Virus record (IMG/VR): IMGVR_UViG_3300017725_000083
Coordinates: 1 to 22,519 of that record
DNA from: a virus
Length of the DNA stretch: 22,519 bases
Strand: one strand, 5' to 3'
Shown here piece by piece: positions 1-9,520 of the stretch (position 1 is the first letter of the stretch; each line of letters opens with the position of its first letter). The notes below the pieces were generated by a model that worked only from the letters and a program-made list of their open reading frames with translations, searched no databases and had not been told where the DNA came from. Both the position numbers and the translations under genes were made by a program.

Positions 1-1903
1 CGCTTTGACTTGAGCCACTACCACCTGGTATTGTAATTGTTTTTGTTGCACCAGTACCTGATGCTGTAACTCCACCACCGACAAAGTTTAATGTTGAACC
101 TGCTGTTGATAAAGCTGAACCTTCATCTTGAATTGTAAGTGCACCACCAGATATAGTAATCGTTTTTGTAGAACCAGTACCAGATGCTGTGACACCTGAA
201 CCTACAAAGTTTAAAGTTGTTCCAGCAGTAGATAATGATGATCCTTCTTCTTGGACGGTAACGCCTGAAGTACCACTGGAAACTGTAGCAAAACTTAATG
301 TACCACTTCCATTAGTTTGTAATACTTGTCCGGCTGATCCATCACTTGTCGGGTAAGTTAAACCTGATAGAACGTTAGTGCCTGAAGCTGTAACTCCACC
401 TGATACTGTAATACCATTTGCAGTTGTTTCTAATTTTTTAGTATTATCATGATAGAAATCTTGTGAACTACCTGAATTAAATACTGCAGATGTTTTACTT
501 AATGCAGCATTTCCAATTGTAAATGTTCCAGATAATACTTGAACATGTCCGTCTCCATTATCTTTAATAATACTATTACTACCATCATGATAAATTTGTA
601 AATCTTGTGAATTACCAAATCTAATAGCATTATTATCTGGAATGTTTACATCTGCAAATTGCGAAACACCGGTACCAACAATTCTACCAGTTACATTTAT
701 TGGATGTGAAAAATCAAATTCATCATTTGTTCCATCCCATAAAATAGTAGCATTTGTAGAACTATTAACAGCATCTTGTATTGTAATACCAGCACCGTCT
801 GCAGTAGAAGAAGTATCTCCAGAACCAAAGTTAAGAGTTATATTTTTATCTTCAACATCTAGAGTGGCAGTATTAATTGTAGTACTTGTTCCACTTACTG
901 TTAGATTACCAGTAACTGTTAAATTACCAGCTGCAGATATATTAGTAGAAGTAATATCATCCGAAGTTAGTGTACCACTAACAGTAGCATTATTAAATGT
1001 AACATTGTCTGAAGTTCCAACTGCTTGGCCAATACTTATTTGACCATTGGATATTGCTACACCAGTACCAGCAGATATATGAGCTCTTACTTCAGCAGCA
1101 CTTGGACCAGTATATGTAATTACACCAGTTGAATTATTATATGCTAATGAACCATCACCACCAGCATCTGTGACTGATATTAATGCACGAGTTGTTGCTG
1201 CCGTTGTTTCTGTAAAAGATATAACACCAGTTGAACTGTTATAAGATAAATCTCCACTTACACTGATGGCCGCTCTTGCTCTTGCAGTTGTATGGTATAG
1301 ATTAGTTGAACCTTCTGTTAAATCATCTGTATCAAATCCAGTTAAGTTTCTAGTGTGAAAGCTAGCAACATTACCCATATATCCATGAGCTGAACATTGG
1401 TAATATAATGCAACTGGAGTAGTACCAGTAGGAATGATTGTAGTATGAGCACCTGAACTACCAGGAGTTCCATTTGTAGTAACCCCAGTAGTATATGCAG
1501 TAGTTTTGTCTGCTTCGTAATAAAATCTTAAAGGATGGCCGGAGTTAGAAGAATCTGATTGATCAAACTTATATGTGTTTCCGGGAACTAATATTAAATG
1601 TGGCGATTCTATGCCATTAATAACATACCCTGAACTAGAACCAGTTCCAGTATAAGCGTGATCAGATGTTTTAGAAGCTACTGTAACTGTTAAAGTTTGA
1701 GTGACACTCTTACGAATTTTAAAATAAGAATCTGTTGCAGTACCGACTTGTATGACACTATCTAAACTACCTTCAGTAGTTTTCATGTAGAGTTTACCGT
1801 CGTTTGTATTTAACGCTAACTCACCTAAGTCTAAATTACTAGTTGTCGGAATGGCACCGGCTGTAGCCGAACGCCTTAATTTAATGTTCGTTTGTCGTGC
1901 CAA
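1..1903 (-). CDS. Tail fibre/adhesin protein with cupredoxin-like domain (partial, runs off left edge)
   Basis: The frame is open for 634 codons from a TTG at 1901-1903 to the window edge, so the C-terminus is missing. The TTG start is chosen because an in-frame stop (TAG, 1913-1915) lies just upstream, no ATG intervenes, a strong AGGAG sits 6 bases before it, and the resulting MARQT-IK start resembles the MANLT-IK start of the neighbouring 506-residue protein. Residues 20-52 hold the LDLGELALNT...GKLYMK motif typical of marine phage fibre N-termini. Residues about 66-182 look like a cupredoxin domain (separate entry). Residues 320-355 carry the GNLTV...TINTATLDVED module shared with the other fibres; 425-500 carry the LQIYHDG/KKLETTANG module. 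Residues 548-628 are two 41-residue tandem repeats. The protein is Thr/Ser/Gly/Asn-rich beta structure throughout. It is inferred to be a receptor-binding or accessory fibre; the missing end could hold a chaperone or tip domain. Confidence 0.85.
   Translation of the reverse strand, partial: MARQTNIKLRRSATAGAIPTTSNLDLGELALNTNDGKLYMKTTEGSLDSVIQVGTATDSYFKIRKSVTQTLTVTVASKTSDHAYTGTGSSSGYVINGIESPHLILVPGNTYKFDQSDSSNSGHPLRFYYEADKTTAYTTGVTTNGTPGSSGAHTTIIPTGTTPVALYYQCSAHGYMGNVASFHTRNLTGFDTDDLTEGSTNLYHTTARARAAISVSGDLSYNSSTGVISFTETTAATTRALISVTDAGGDGSLAYNNSTGVITYTGPSAAEVRAHISAGTGVAISNGQISIGQAVGTSDNVTFNNATVSGTLTSDDITSTNISAAGNLTVTGNLTVSGTSTTINTATLDVEDKNITLNFGSGDTSSTADGAGITIQDAVNSSTNATILWDGTNDEFDFSHPINVTGRIVGTGVSQFADVNIPDNNAIRFGNSQDLQIYHDGSNSIIKDNGDGHVQVLSGTFTIGNAALSKTSAVFNSGSSQDFYHDNTKKLETTANGITVSGGVTASGTNVLSGLTYPTSDGSAGQVLQTNGSGTLSFATVSSGTSGVTVQEEGSSLSTAGTTLNFVGSGVTASGTGSTKTITISGGALTIQDEGSALSTAGSTLNFVGGGVTASGTGATKTITIPGGSGSSQS
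17..262 (-). repeat. Two tandem 123-bp repeats (41 residues each) in the fibre gene
   Basis: Residues about 548-587 and 589-628 repeat the pattern (V/I)Q(E/D)EGS-LSTAG-TLNFVG-GVTASGTG-TKTITI-GG, with Gln551 matching Gln592. At DNA level the copies sit 123 bases apart, with many third-position differences, so the duplication is not very recent. A further copy may continue beyond the left edge. Such repeats typically form the elongated beta shaft of a fibre. Confidence 0.85.
1358..1708 (-). other. Cupredoxin-like (type-1 copper) domain inside the fibre protein
   Basis: This covers residues about 66-182 of the TTG-started fibre protein. The visible ligand set is His123 (SGHPLRF, codon 1535-1537), Cys170, His173 and Met176 (YYQCSAHGYMG, codons 1394-1396, 1385-1387 and 1376-1378). 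The order His...Cys-x2-His-x-x-Met is that of blue-copper proteins, and the 47-residue distance from first His to Cys equals that of plastocyanin (His37-Cys84). The Met is two residues closer to the second His than in plastocyanin. The preceding PHLILVPGNTYKFDQ resembles the strand-turn-strand before the first ligand. I recognise the module as a recurrent, largely uncharacterised one in marine phage structural proteins. Copper binding is inferred; a structural domain that has kept the motif without metal is the alternative. Confidence 0.65.
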
Positions 1904-4072: not shown

Positions 4073-4405
4073 TTAACTATTTATACTTTTGAGACTTTCA
4101 ATCTCAGCTTTTAATTCTTTATTTTGTTCTGTTAATTCTTTAACAGCTTCAACTAAAAGAGCAGTTACTTTATCATACCTTACAGTATCATACCCTTCTA
4201 CAGAAGATTCAGTTACTAATTCAGGTGCTACTTTTTGTACGTCTTGAGCACTTAAACCAATATGTTCTTCTTCTTTTTGCTCTTCAGTTTTAAATCCAAG
4301 TTCAACTGCTTTATCATTCCAGTTATAATGGAATCCATTTAGAGCATTTACTTTGTCTAAGGCATTTTCTATATTACCTTTTTTATCTTTTAATCTATCA
4401 TCTGA
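4073..4405 (-). other. S74 peptidase / intramolecular chaperone domain
   Basis: This covers residues 1706-1815 of the long fibre. SDDRLK matches the S-D-x-R-x-K motif in which Ser and the Lys five residues later carry out self-cleavage (endosialidase Ser911/Lys916). The conserved IGLSAQDV and a final helix (LVEAVKELTEQNKELKAEI) are present. The predicted mature fibre ends at Ala1705. Confidence 0.9.
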
Positions 4406-7400
4406 TGCTGCAGCAATAATATCACCAGTAGCATATATAGTATTAGTAGATGGATTTACATAAACACCCGCTGTTCCATAAACACTATTACCTGAACCCC
4501 ATAACATTTGATATGTAGAAGCTGAATTATTGTTATAATTAATAGTAACAGTACTTGCGACTGATGCACTAGATGCTGTTGAAGCACTTGTTGCTGTTGA
4601 AGCATTACCATTAAGGCTTCCTTTAAAATTAAAGTTAACATCACCTAGTGTATTTGTACCAGGATTATAATAAAGCCCAGCATCAAAGTAGACTTGTTTA
4701 TTTTGAGTTCCCGATAGATGATAATCTGTAAAGAGAATATTATACGCTGTTGAATTAGTTTGGTTTTGTGACGCTGCAATGGTGCTGGCTGATGATGCAT
4801 TACCAGAAAGAGTTGCTGTAATTATACGAGCACTGAAGTCTCCATTTCCATCTCTTTGTACTATTCGACTACCAGTGTTTGCACTAGTACATGTAATAGT
4901 AGCTGAGTTAGCTTGGCTGGTGATTGATCCCGCGCTCGTTGCTGTTGAAGCATTACCAGCTAAGTTTGGTACTGTTAATGTGTTCGTATGTGGGTTATAA
5001 TAAAAATGAGCAGCGGTATCTTTATATAAACTCTCGGGAGCATTATAACCATCATTGGTTTCACCAAATACCATTCTATAACTAGTATTGAGACTTGTTC
5101 CAGTTACATATACTGAAGATGCTGATGAAGCATTACCAGATAAACTCCCAGAGAATGTTCCAGCGGTAAGAGTATTTGTGTGTGGATTATAAGTAAAATT
5201 TGCATCATATCTAACAGCTTTATTAGCATTAGCATTTGTTCCAATAAATGTTGGAAATCTACTAGCATTGTCTGAATCCGCGCTAACATATACTTGACTA
5301 GCCGATGAAGCATTACCAGCTAAGTTTGGTGCATTCAATGTATTTGTGTGTGGATTATATGTTAAATTATCATCTTCATATGCTGATCTATAAGCATTTC
5401 CACCAGCATTAAACCAAGCAAGAGGATAATTATTACTCCATGCACCATTACCACCATTTTCTGCGGTTATATATAATCCATTAGCATATGATGCGGTTGT
5501 CGCAGTTGTTGCATTACCAGCTAAAGCCCCAGAAAATGTTCCAGTGGTAAGAGTATTTGTATTTGGGTTATAATAAAAATGAGCACCAGTGTCTTTAAAT
5601 AAACTTTCATAATCATTAACACCATCATTGGCTTCACCAAATACCATTCTATAAGATGTATCATTACTTGCTCCAGTTACATAAACCCGTGATGATGTTC
5701 CAGCATTACCATCTAATGCACCAAGGAATCGGCTTGTAGACAATGTATTATCACTAGATCTATATGTTAAACCATCATCATGGTGAAGCGATTTATTACC
5801 AGAACCATCACCAGTATGCCATACTACTCTTCTAAAAGTATTATCATCATTATCTTCAGTTACATAAACCTGAGTAGCAGATCCAGCGTTACCAGTTGCA
5901 CTTCCAGCAGAACCCGTTATATTACCAGTCACATTACCAACCACATTACCAGATAATGGGCCGGAGAATCCAGTAGCAGTTATGGTTCCATCATTATTTG
6001 TTCTTACAACTTTATTTGTAGTAACAGCACCCTGCGCAGTTTCATCTTCTTGAACATACCTATCATCAAAGTCATCTGTAGTAACTGATGTTACGTGACC
6101 TTGAGCATTAACATTAATTCTTCTTATATAACCACCATCTTCTGATGCTGGCCCGTAATGAGCAGCTCCTACTCCTACTGCAGAGTGATTAATAGTTATA
6201 GTATCACCACTTCTAGCAGAAGCTAAAGCAGTTCCACCTGATATAGTAAGTGTATCATTATTACTATTTGCTACTGCTGTTCCACCAGAATTAGCAGCGA
6301 TATTTTTAAATATATATTGTGATGAACCTCTATCAGTATTTGCAAAAGTAAAGTTAATATTAGTACCGCTTAATCCACCAGAGATATCAATGCCTGTGCC
6401 TTCAATTAAATTTAAATCTCTTGCAGCAGTCATGTCAATAGCTGTTCCACTATTTATTTTTACTTGTGGTATGATAATACTATTGACAGTGTCTAATATC
6501 ATATTACCATCAGCTTCCCAACGATCTTGAGCAAAATTATATACAAATGAGTGTGTACCAGTTACATTAGATGCTGCATTTGCATGAACACTAGTGCCAG
6601 AAAATAATCTTGTTTCAATACCAAAACCACCAGTTGATGGCTCACTACCCGAAGTACTAGTAAGTATTAATGTATCTTCAACTTCTAGTGTTGCTGTATT
6701 TAATATTGTATTTGTACCATTAACAGTTAAGTCACCAGTAATTGTTAAATTACCTGGAACTGAAACTGTATCGCTTGAAGCGTTACCTAATGTAGTATTA
6801 CCATTAACACTTAAACTTCCACCAATTGTAGTATTACCAGATATATCTGCAGCACCATTTACATCAAGTGTAGAAGATTCCAGTTCTCCTTGAACTAATA
6901 CACCGCCTGCTGTTGTTTCTATTTTTTTAGCGTTATTGTAGAATAAATTAACTGCACCATTCTCAGCTGCAGAAATCATAGTTTCATTATTAGCTGCGTT
7001 ATTTACAAAGAAACTTGGATTAACTATCTTAAGAGGATCGGTACTTGATATAACACTATTAGTATTATCATTATATAATTGGAATTCGTCTGAATTACCT
7101 AGTAGTATTTTTTCGCTATATCCTAAATCTAGTTTATCGGCTGTTAAAGCAAATGTAGTATTACCTAAATTAGTAATAGTTGCTGAACCTAAATTACCAC
7201 TTGATCTAAATGTTGATGAGGTAAATGTAAGTGTGGGATCAGCTACGTTAAAGTCAAAGTTTTGATTTGTTGAATCCCATGTAACTGCAATACCAGATTC
7301 TGAATTATTTTGTATTAAATCTTCAGCATTATAGAATGTAACGATATCAGCAGTATTATCTGATTTATCATTTGCCATACCTCTAAGTTGCCAAGCTCTT

Positions 7401-9520
7401 GCTGGCTTAGATCCTACTAGAGTTTCATTCCATATTAATCTTACATCATGCTTTGGATTACTACCACTTAAAGCAGTTCTATCAACCTGTAATCCTTGTA
7501 TGTTTACATTTGAACCCGAAGCTGCAGTAGCATTTAAGTTAACAAAGGCTGATCCAAAGTTTGCTACTCCACCTGCAGATGAAAATAATGCAGTAGTGTT
7601 TGAGAAGTCTACTGAATCACCAGTAAATGTTATACTGCCAGTAATGTTTTGATTAACACCACCTGCCAAATTTTTATTTAAATGATTTGTATCAAGAGTA
7701 TTAATTTGTGTTTCATGCTCATTAATAGCACCAACCAAATTATTAGCAGAAGTAGTAAGTGTATAGTTACTTAGTGTACCTCTTACTGCAGCTTCCAATT
7801 CATTAATAGCATCTCTAAAGTTTTGAGCTCCAGTACCTAAAGTATAATTTGCTTGAGTTCCTCTTGCTGCAGTTTCTAATTCATTAATAGCTCCGGACAA
7901 TGTTGTTGCATCTGTTCCAAGAGTAGCAGCACCTTGCTTTAGATCCAATTCATTAATTGCTAAAGTTAAATTTGTTGCTGCTGTAGTTAAATTATTATAA
8001 TTACCTAATGCACCTTGTATTTCAACAATACCAGCTGATGCGCTTGTTGCGGAATAGCCACTAGCATTATCAATAGTAGAATGATCGCCAAGTTCTGTTC
8101 TTAATTCTCGAATTGCTGCTGAAATATCTGTAGCAGACAATCCAGTAAATGTCATATTACCTATATCGGTTTCATGTTCTCTAATGGCGTCTCTTACATT
8201 CTGCGCAGAAGTAGTTAATGTATAATCAGAATTACCAGCTCTTAAAACCGTTTCAATTTCGTTAATAGCAGCAACTAAATCATTTGCATTTGTACCAATT
8301 GCGTAATTACCAGCACTTCCTCTTATTGCAGTTTCTAATTCATTAATAGCACCAACTGCGTCAGCAGTATGCGTAGTACCCAATGAAGCATGATTACCAA
8401 GTTCAGTTCTAAGTTCTCTTAATGCTGTAGATATATCTGTGGCAGATAAACCAGTAAAGACCATATTGCCGATATCGGTTTCATGTTCTCGAATTGCATC
8501 TCTAAAGTTTTGAGCAGTTGTTGTTAGTGTATAGTTTGAATTGGTTCCACGAGCGGCGGTTTCAATTTCATTAATAGAAGATACAATATCTGATTTATTA
8601 GTAGTACCTAATGAAGTAATTTCACCAATATCATCTTGAATTTCTATAATAGCATCAATAGTATTTGTAGAAGTTATTACTACATCATCACTTGTTGGAA
8701 TTGTATGTAATTCAATAATGTTTCCAAGAGTGAGATCAGGACCAGCTTGAGAGCTTATATTTGCTGCGGCAATTCTATTTGACGCGTCGGTGTGTGGAAC
8801 TCCAGCATTTGCACTAACACTAAAATTTCCACTGTGTGATTTAAATAAAAGTTCAGATGTAGTTGCTTTATATAATACACCTGAGAAACCATTTGATTGA
8901 GTAACAGTAGCACCTTCAGTAAATGAAGCTGGTATAGAAGGTGAACCACTTAAAACAACTCTTAACGATAAATTAGGTACATGAAAACCAGATTGAGTTA
9001 AACTTTGTGATAGTGTTGTTCCATCTTGAACTGCTTTTACATAACCAACTTTATATGATTCAGTTACAAGTCTTACTAATTTAGTGTTAGCAATAGAATC
9101 AGTTGAAAATTTAATTGGTAATGAAGCGTTAAAAGTACCAGTAGTATTTTTTAGTGATATTTTATTTTTATTAATATAATTAATAATACCAGTAAATGTT
9201 TCTGAACCAGAATTACCTTGGAATAAAACTACATCTGAAACAAAACTAGATGGTATCGTTGGATTACCAGTCATAATAATAGTTGCAGGAGCATCTATTA
9301 CTTCTTCTTGTTTAATTTCGAATCTTAAGTTTTTACTTGATGCATCGGCATCATATACAGAAAATACTGACTCACTAGTACTTGAATAAGTATATACTTT
9401 ATCAGTTAATCTATTATCTAATTGATCAACATCTCCTAAATGGTATGAGACTTCATTAGTTTTCTGTCTCCACTGTTCAAGAGTATTATTCTTTAAAACC
9501 TTTGTTTCGTTATTTGCCAT
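4073..9520 (-). CDS. Long tail fibre with C-terminal S74 intramolecular chaperone, 1815 residues
   Basis: The N-terminus NNTLEQWRQKTNEV-YHLGDVDQL is typical of baseplate-bound marine phage fibres. Residues about 80-250 hold two related IMTGNP-IPSSF / VLSGSP-IPASF segments. Residues about 290-610 contain about a dozen copies of a 25-26 residue AINELET/RG repeat, likely a trimeric helical shaft. The middle carries the GDLTVNGTNTILNTATLEVED module shared with the other fibres. Residues about 1245-1700 have about seven YNPxTNTL...GNAstAt repeats. The last 110 residues are an S74 endosialidase-type chaperone: SDDRLK gives the Ser1706/Lys1711 pair, followed by HIGLSAQDVQKVAPELV and a terminal coiled coil. 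In this family the chaperone folds the trimer and then cleaves itself off before the Ser. The start overlaps the upstream stop (TAATG). It is probably a main receptor-binding fibre. Confidence 0.9.
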   Translation of the reverse strand: MANNETKVLKNNTLEQWRQKTNEVSYHLGDVDQLDNRLTDKVYTYSSTSESVFSVYDADASSKNLRFEIKQEEVIDAPATIIMTGNPTIPSSFVSDVVLFQGNSGSETFTGIINYINKNKISLKNTTGTFNASLPIKFSTDSIANTKLVRLVTESYKVGYVKAVQDGTTLSQSLTQSGFHVPNLSLRVVLSGSPSIPASFTEGATVTQSNGFSGVLYKATTSELLFKSHSGNFSVSANAGVPHTDASNRIAAANISSQAGPDLTLGNIIELHTIPTSDDVVITSTNTIDAIIEIQDDIGEITSLGTTNKSDIVSSINEIETAARGTNSNYTLTTTAQNFRDAIREHETDIGNMVFTGLSATDISTALRELRTELGNHASLGTTHTADAVGAINELETAIRGSAGNYAIGTNANDLVAAINEIETVLRAGNSDYTLTTSAQNVRDAIREHETDIGNMTFTGLSATDISAAIRELRTELGDHSTIDNASGYSATSASAGIVEIQGALGNYNNLTTAATNLTLAINELDLKQGAATLGTDATTLSGAINELETAARGTQANYTLGTGAQNFRDAINELEAAVRGTLSNYTLTTSANNLVGAINEHETQINTLDTNHLNKNLAGGVNQNITGSITFTGDSVDFSNTTALFSSAGGVANFGSAFVNLNATAASGSNVNIQGLQVDRTALSGSNPKHDVRLIWNETLVGSKPARAWQLRGMANDKSDNTADIVTFYNAEDLIQNNSESGIAVTWDSTNQNFDFNVADPTLTFTSSTFRSSGNLGSATITNLGNTTFALTADKLDLGYSEKILLGNSDEFQLYNDNTNSVISSTDPLKIVNPSFFVNNAANNETMISAAENGAVNLFYNNAKKIETTAGGVLVQGELESSTLDVNGAADISGNTTIGGSLSVNGNTTLGNASSDTVSVPGNLTITGDLTVNGTNTILNTATLEVEDTLILTSTSGSEPSTGGFGIETRLFSGTSVHANAASNVTGTHSFVYNFAQDRWEADGNMILDTVNSIIIPQVKINSGTAIDMTAARDLNLIEGTGIDISGGLSGTNINFTFANTDRGSSQYIFKNIAANSGGTAVANSNNDTLTISGGTALASARSGDTITINHSAVGVGAAHYGPASEDGGYIRRINVNAQGHVTSVTTDDFDDRYVQEDETAQGAVTTNKVVRTNNDGTITATGFSGPLSGNVVGNVTGNITGSAGSATGNAGSATQVYVTEDNDDNTFRRVVWHTGDGSGNKSLHHDDGLTYRSSDNTLSTSRFLGALDGNAGTSSRVYVTGASNDTSYRMVFGEANDGVNDYESLFKDTGAHFYYNPNTNTLTTGTFSGALAGNATTATTASYANGLYITAENGGNGAWSNNYPLAWFNAGGNAYRSAYEDDNLTYNPHTNTLNAPNLAGNASSASQVYVSADSDNASRFPTFIGTNANANKAVRYDANFTYNPHTNTLTAGTFSGSLSGNASSASSVYVTGTSLNTSYRMVFGETNDGYNAPESLYKDTAAHFYYNPHTNTLTVPNLAGNASTATSAGSITSQANSATITCTSANTGSRIVQRDGNGDFSARIITATLSGNASSASTIAASQNQTNSTAYNILFTDYHLSGTQNKQVYFDAGLYYNPGTNTLGDVNFNFKGSLNGNASTATSASTASSASVASTVTINYNNNSASTYQMLWGSGNSVYGTAGVYVNPSTNTIYATGDIIAAASDDRLKDKKGNIENALDKVNALNGFHYNWNDKAVELGFKTEEQKEEEHIGLSAQDVQKVAPELVTESSVEGYDTVRYDKVTALLVEAVKELTEQNKELKAEIESLKSINS
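4078..4085 (-). promoter_or_regulatory. T4-type late promoter (TATAAATAG) before the 110-residue gene
   Basis: This exact TATAAATA followed by G lies in the last codons of the long fibre gene (Ser-Ile-Asn-Ser). The predicted transcript start would be near 4072, leaving a leader of about 15 bases that still includes AGGAAG before the GTG start. Confidence 0.55.
4430..5780 (-). repeat. YNPxTNTL repeats of the fibre
   Basis: About seven imperfect copies of a unit of 55-75 residues begin with (Y)YNPxTNTL and contain GTFSGSLSGNAssAs or a shorter PNLAGNA form. Two versions (long and short) tend to alternate. They precede the S74 domain and presumably build the distal beta-rich part of the fibre. 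Confidence 0.8.
7690..8640 (-). repeat. AINELET-type repeats forming a fibre shaft
   Basis: About twelve copies of a 25-26 residue unit with the core (A)IxEhEt-xG, as in AINELETAIRG, AIREHETDIGN and ALRELRTELGN. A larger two-unit block (YTLTT-AQN-RDAIREHETDIG through ELRTELG) occurs twice, at about 8380-8543 and 8066-8233, roughly 310 bases apart. Confidence 0.85.

Follow-up and report, generated by a model that had tools for sequence, protein, structure and literature searches.

The fibre gene and its predicted copper site

The window analysed here, a stretch of 22,519 nt from the record of an uncultured virus, carries on its minus strand the tail module of a T4-like marine phage, with baseplate genes of the gp25, gp6 and gp8 types, a very large tail protein, several fibres and a fibre-assembly protein. 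The nearest relatives of its gp6 are found in Methylophilales phage Melnitz (40%) and Pelagibacter phage Mosig (39%). One of the fibres, encoded at 4073-9520 (-), is a protein of 1815 aa with many repeated segments and a C-terminal Peptidase_S74 (endosialidase-type) chaperone. The features of the last fibre of the window, which is the subject of this analysis, are as follows.

2..1903 (-): tail fibre gene fragment of 634 aa, with a TTG start and AGGAG upstream, open at the window edge; matched by PHROG tail fiber families
1724..1903 (-): N-terminal segment of the fibre, residues 1-60; matched by phrog_29752 over residues 6-45 and near-identical in L082
1364..1720 (-): cupredoxin domain, about residues 62-180 (HMM envelope 72-178), from AlphaFold2, Foldseek against the PDB, hhalign and HMM
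1535..1537 (-): codon of His123, predicted first metal ligand, in SGHPLRFY; aligned by hhalign with the ligand His of plastocyanin and conserved in 63/63 copies
1394..1396 (-): codon of Cys170, predicted thiolate ligand, from hhalign and conservation; sole Cys of the fragment
1385..1387 (-): codon of His173, predicted second His ligand, from hhalign and conservation
1376..1378 (-): codon of Met176, predicted axial ligand at Cys+6, from conservation and the loop in the title of PDB entry 2vmj

The segment formed by residues 1-60 is common to other marine phage fibres and is probably the end by which the fibre attaches to the particle. Residues 65-243 match the profile of PHROG 30742, a tail fiber protein family, with an E-value of 7.2e-48. 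Neither Pfam, in which the gathering cut-off of PF00127 is not reached, nor NCBIfam gives a match for this fibre.

The initial annotation had proposed, for positions 1358-1708 (residues 66-182 of the fibre), a cupredoxin-like domain with a complete set of copper ligands. Translation of 2..1903 (-) bears out all four residues, with His123 followed by Cys170, His173 and Met176 in the motif YYQCSAHGYMG. The His-to-Cys spacing of 47, which equals that of plastocyanin, and the Cys-x2-His arrangement are as described there, and the Met does lie nearer to the Cys than in plastocyanin, at Cys+6 compared with Cys+8. The fibre thus presents the type-1 pattern, in which His, Cys, His and Met occur in this order with Cys-x(2-4)-His-x(2-4)-Met, and its Cys-x2-His-x2-Met loop has the spacing of amicyanin, not that of plastocyanin. 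The title of 2vmj, which is one of the fold matches of the domain, cites CTPHPFM as a loop that binds type 1 copper; we take this to be the loop of amicyanin, with which the fibre agrees in the position of its Met. The whole 634-aa fragment contains a single Cys (C170) and only two Met residues (M40 and M176), and with one Cys available the ligand motif is not a chance choice among many.

Fold and kinship with the cupredoxins

The AlphaFold2 model of the domain, calculated from an alignment of 56 relatives, is a nine-strand sandwich of the Greek-key cupredoxin type, with a pLDDT of 95.1 and a pTM of 0.88, and it upholds the fold that had been proposed from the ligand pattern. His123 is located just before a strand, and Cys170, His173 and Met176 are at the end of and after strand E104-109 (numbering of the model), as expected for type-1 ligands. 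The best 50 matches of a Foldseek comparison with the PDB are all cupredoxins; the eight with E-values below 0.001 are rusticyanins (2e-4 to 7e-4), and laccases, nitrite reductases and other cupredoxin proteins make up the rest. The TM-scores are only ∼0.5, which marks the domain as a divergent member of this group. A second model, of copies of the domain that follow a zinc ribbon, has a pLDDT of 82.9 and gives only weak PDB matches, with copper nitrite reductases first (E 0.057 or worse). Fold matches in BFVD, at TM-scores of 0.73-0.77, include giant-virus 'beta-sandwich proteins' of the Pithovirus and Marseillevirus LC types (A0A481Z7Q7, A0A481Z6J5 and A0A481YWX9).

Sequence comparisons place the domain beside the plastocyanin family, below the level at which Pfam recognises it. 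A single-sequence search of the PDB with the fibre domain found no match, and a profile search found a weak one to pseudoazurin (E 0.24). None of the 56 relatives is matched by PF00127; a copy in P-HM2 scores 16.5 bits, below the cut-off of 21.2, and weak Pfam matches among the relatives are to SpaA_3 and an At5g54830-like domain. For profile-profile comparison, PF00127 proteins were taken from marine genomes, and a check of their alignment against the PDB identified it as plastocyanin/pseudoazurin/amicyanin. Comparison of the family profile with these classical plastocyanin-type proteins by hhalign gives a P-value of 4.5e-5, or 2.7e-8 when two intermediates are added; reversed profiles give 0.52 and 0.26, and the best of 40 column shuffles each 0.15 and 0.087. 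A shallower profile, built from close relatives only, gives the weaker values of 0.0039 and 2.6e-5. In the alignment His123, Cys170 and His173 fall on the known copper ligands of plastocyanin. The family HMM, built without PF00127, also matches two intermediate cellular proteins, L138 (2e-9) and L141 (6e-8), in searches of a small database, and both of these score above the Pfam cut-off for PF00127.

It is very improbable that the domain is a fibre β-sandwich from outside the cupredoxins that resembles them by chance. The silence of Pfam and NCBIfam and the modest TM-scores could be read in that way, but the fold search, the profile-profile comparison with its shuffled controls, the intermediate sequences and the conservation of the ligands all agree. 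We conclude that the identity of the fibre domain as a cupredoxin is well supported.

Conservation, loss and spread of the site

Conservation was assessed with scans seeded by the N-terminal half of the domain only, so that the query held no ligand residue. Among fibre-type relatives the four ligands are complete in all 63 unique copies, many more than chance would give, and these close relatives, whose loss of Cys170 or His173 would have told against the copper-site proposal, never lose either. The scan for zinc-ribbon-type copies returned 62 unique entries, comprising 60 with the site intact, one with Asp-Cys-His-Leu and one truncated (60 of 61 complete copies intact). His82 was considered as an extra ligand, being invariant in the first alignment, and was rejected because only some 60% of the wider family retain it.

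Losses of the site do occur among distant copies, and most of them affect it as a whole. When the complete records of 24 cultured phage genomes were searched, each yielded between one and five copies of the domain, 57 in all; His123 and the Cys-His-Met loop are both present in 33 of these and both absent from 19, five have the His only, and none has the loop only. Fisher's test on this co-occurrence gives P 7e-11, or 2e-9 after clustering, values that count copies as independent and are inflated by shared ancestry. Many of the copies in cyanophage baseplate and structural proteins are ligand-free, and in each of two Bacteroidetes assemblies (L103 and L104) an intact and a ligand-free copy occur in the same protein. 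The existence of ligand-free copies, together with the near absence of the loop wherever the first His is missing, indicates that the fold can do without the site and that the site is one functional unit. The gp080 protein of cyanophage PSS2 (L116:3992-4330) is a stand-alone copy of the domain, of 112 aa, in which the site has been lost (Asp-Ala-Thr-Met).

Joint loss of the ligands fits any metal, and the same fold and four-residue site might hold zinc or another ion as a purely structural clamp, the part that metals play elsewhere in phage tails. Sites of the Cys-His2-Met kind are able to hold zinc or Cu(I), the cytosol in which virions are assembled is poor in copper, and the known metal sites of phages are structural, with iron in the tip of the T4 long fibre and in the P2 spike and zinc in some tail parts. 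We nevertheless consider this rather unlikely, given that the axial Met, a feature that sets copper sites apart from zinc sites, is strictly kept (63/63) and that profile and fold comparisons both place blue-copper proteins and copper enzymes nearest. Judged from its sequence, the predicted site is likely to bind copper.

The domain is present in the fibre, as the initial annotation held, but it is not peculiar to one adhesin, being found also in other virion proteins of many marine phages and in some bacterial surface-type proteins. Its carriers in marine phages include fibres, gp9, gp7, large structural proteins, a zinc-ribbon protein and a connector-like protein, and its position differs widely between them. 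Apart from one of unknown host, every phage record matched is identified as marine by its name or its host (Synechococcus, Prochlorococcus, Pelagibacter, Methylophilales and other marine phages), and the hosts comprise photosynthetic and heterotrophic marine bacteria. The domain was not found in any of many enterobacterial T4-like phages that share gp6, and a search of plasmids gave no match. In L279 the domain interrupts a head-tail connector-like protein (4329-5333 (+)) midway, at about residues 105-210, and the gene before this one encodes another copy, C-terminal and behind a zinc ribbon. A large group of marine phage proteins of ∼240 aa (L223-L302, for example L230:3605-4327) combines an N-terminal CxxC...CxxC zinc ribbon with an intact C-terminal cupredoxin domain.

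In marine bacterial assemblies the domain is located in very large surface-type proteins and alongside RTX, DUF5648 or DUF4214 domains. Some matches on short bacterial contigs are probably phage DNA. A Bacteroidetes protein of 4500 aa (L095:2694-16265) has an intact copy and is encoded on a 1-Mb contig, which shows that the module is also cellular. Capture of the host plastocyanin gene (petE) was considered and judged unlikely, since PF00127 has no match and the domain is found also in phages of non-photosynthetic hosts.

The shuffling of the domain among unrelated virion proteins invites a different reading, in which it decorates virions as a general binder of sugars or surfaces, much as Ig-like domains do in other phages, and its metal site is incidental or an aid to folding. 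Its presence in large surface-type proteins of marine bacteria and the many cyanophage baseplate and structural copies without ligands are consistent with such a use. An incidental site, however, would not stay in 63 of 63 fibre-type copies, nor is the loop expected to be absent wherever the first His is absent, and we regard this reading as unlikely.

Proposed role and comparison with known systems

The interpretation we favour, and hold to be moderately probable as a whole, is that the fibre domain is a genuine cupredoxin whose type-1-like site is intact, and that it serves as a mobile decoration module of virions, receives copper after lysis and acts as a stabilising or adhesive knob. Marine phages would append the module to virion proteins, or insert it in them, and the domain would fold metal-free in the host cytoplasm. 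Copper could then be taken up after lysis, in oxic seawater, where the bound metal would lock the ligand loop. The fibre would then bear a stable knob on its outside, close to its base, which might stiffen the fibre or support attachment.

A redox role, by electron exchange with host envelope proteins or by Cu(II)/Cu(I) cycling at the cell surface, could instead trigger or aid infection. In those members that have been studied well, type-1 sites transfer electrons, the ligand set here is intact, and the hosts include both photosynthetic and heterotrophic marine bacteria. Neither a partner nor an adjoining enzyme domain is apparent, however, the domain of the window fibre comes after the N-terminal segment and not at the distal tip, and its position in other carriers varies widely. 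We consider redox activity on the virion quite unlikely, and less probable than a stabilising or adhesive function. A broader proposal, that marine phage particles bear working blue-copper sites on their outside, that the copper functions in infection (for example if attachment to proteins of the host envelope depends on redox chemistry or on copper) and that the copper chemistry of seawater modulates adsorption, seems to us doubtful.

Metal ions in phage tails are known; we know of no blue-copper-type site there. A literature search, with most subscription journals and preprints outside its reach, turned up no account of cupredoxins as parts of phage particles, and a paper on viral nirK concerns a separate metabolic gene (PMC8115048). 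The cupredoxin is itself a known kind of domain, and what appears to be new, on the evidence of sequence, is that it serves widely as a module of virions with its predicted site intact. Should copper be bound, cyanophages, pelagiphages and methylophages, all abundant in the ocean, would expose copper sites, with a possible link between copper chemistry, particle stability and host attachment. The analysis also gives a name to a domain for which current annotation libraries offer no more than 'tail fiber' or 'hypothetical protein', and it cautions that a match of this kind in a virome is not necessarily a metabolic plastocyanin gene.

Close counterparts are in the fibres of phages Melnitz (Methylophilales), Bellamy (Synechococcus) and Mosig (Pelagibacter), of PHROG 30742, in which the domain is 69-71% identical and none of the four ligands is missing; these are annotated only as tail fiber, and the position of the domain differs (about residue 69, 279 and 398). 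More distant copies, on a baseplate protein rather than a fibre, are found at the C-terminus of gp9, the cyanophage baseplate-fibre connector (PHROG 677; intact copies in L117:2071-3294 and L118:2014-3240), with His-Cys-His-Met complete in P-SSM7 and S-RIM8.

Among cellular proteins, the plastocyanin/pseudoazurin/amicyanin family (PF00127, Copper-bind) shares the ligand order His...Cys-x2-His...Met and the aligned His and Cys/His columns, whereas the fibre domain falls below Pfam recognition and is part of a virion fibre, not a soluble electron carrier. The fibre domain also has Pro after the first His, where plastocyanin has Asn, a difference which indicates that its outer shell is unlike that of the classical single-domain blue proteins; multicopper oxidases, too, have Pro after the type-1 His. 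Rusticyanin, the two-domain laccases and the copper nitrite reductases, which are the top Foldseek matches in the PDB, share the Greek-key cupredoxin sandwich at ∼10-19% identity and a TM-score of ∼0.5, but neither a second (type 2/3) copper site nor an enzyme context is seen in the fibre. The Ig-like domains of tailed phages form a β-sandwich module that shuffling has spread over proteins of the capsid, tail and baseplate, and the fibre domain is likewise a shuffled β-sandwich; it differs from them in its fold family and in having a predicted metal site.
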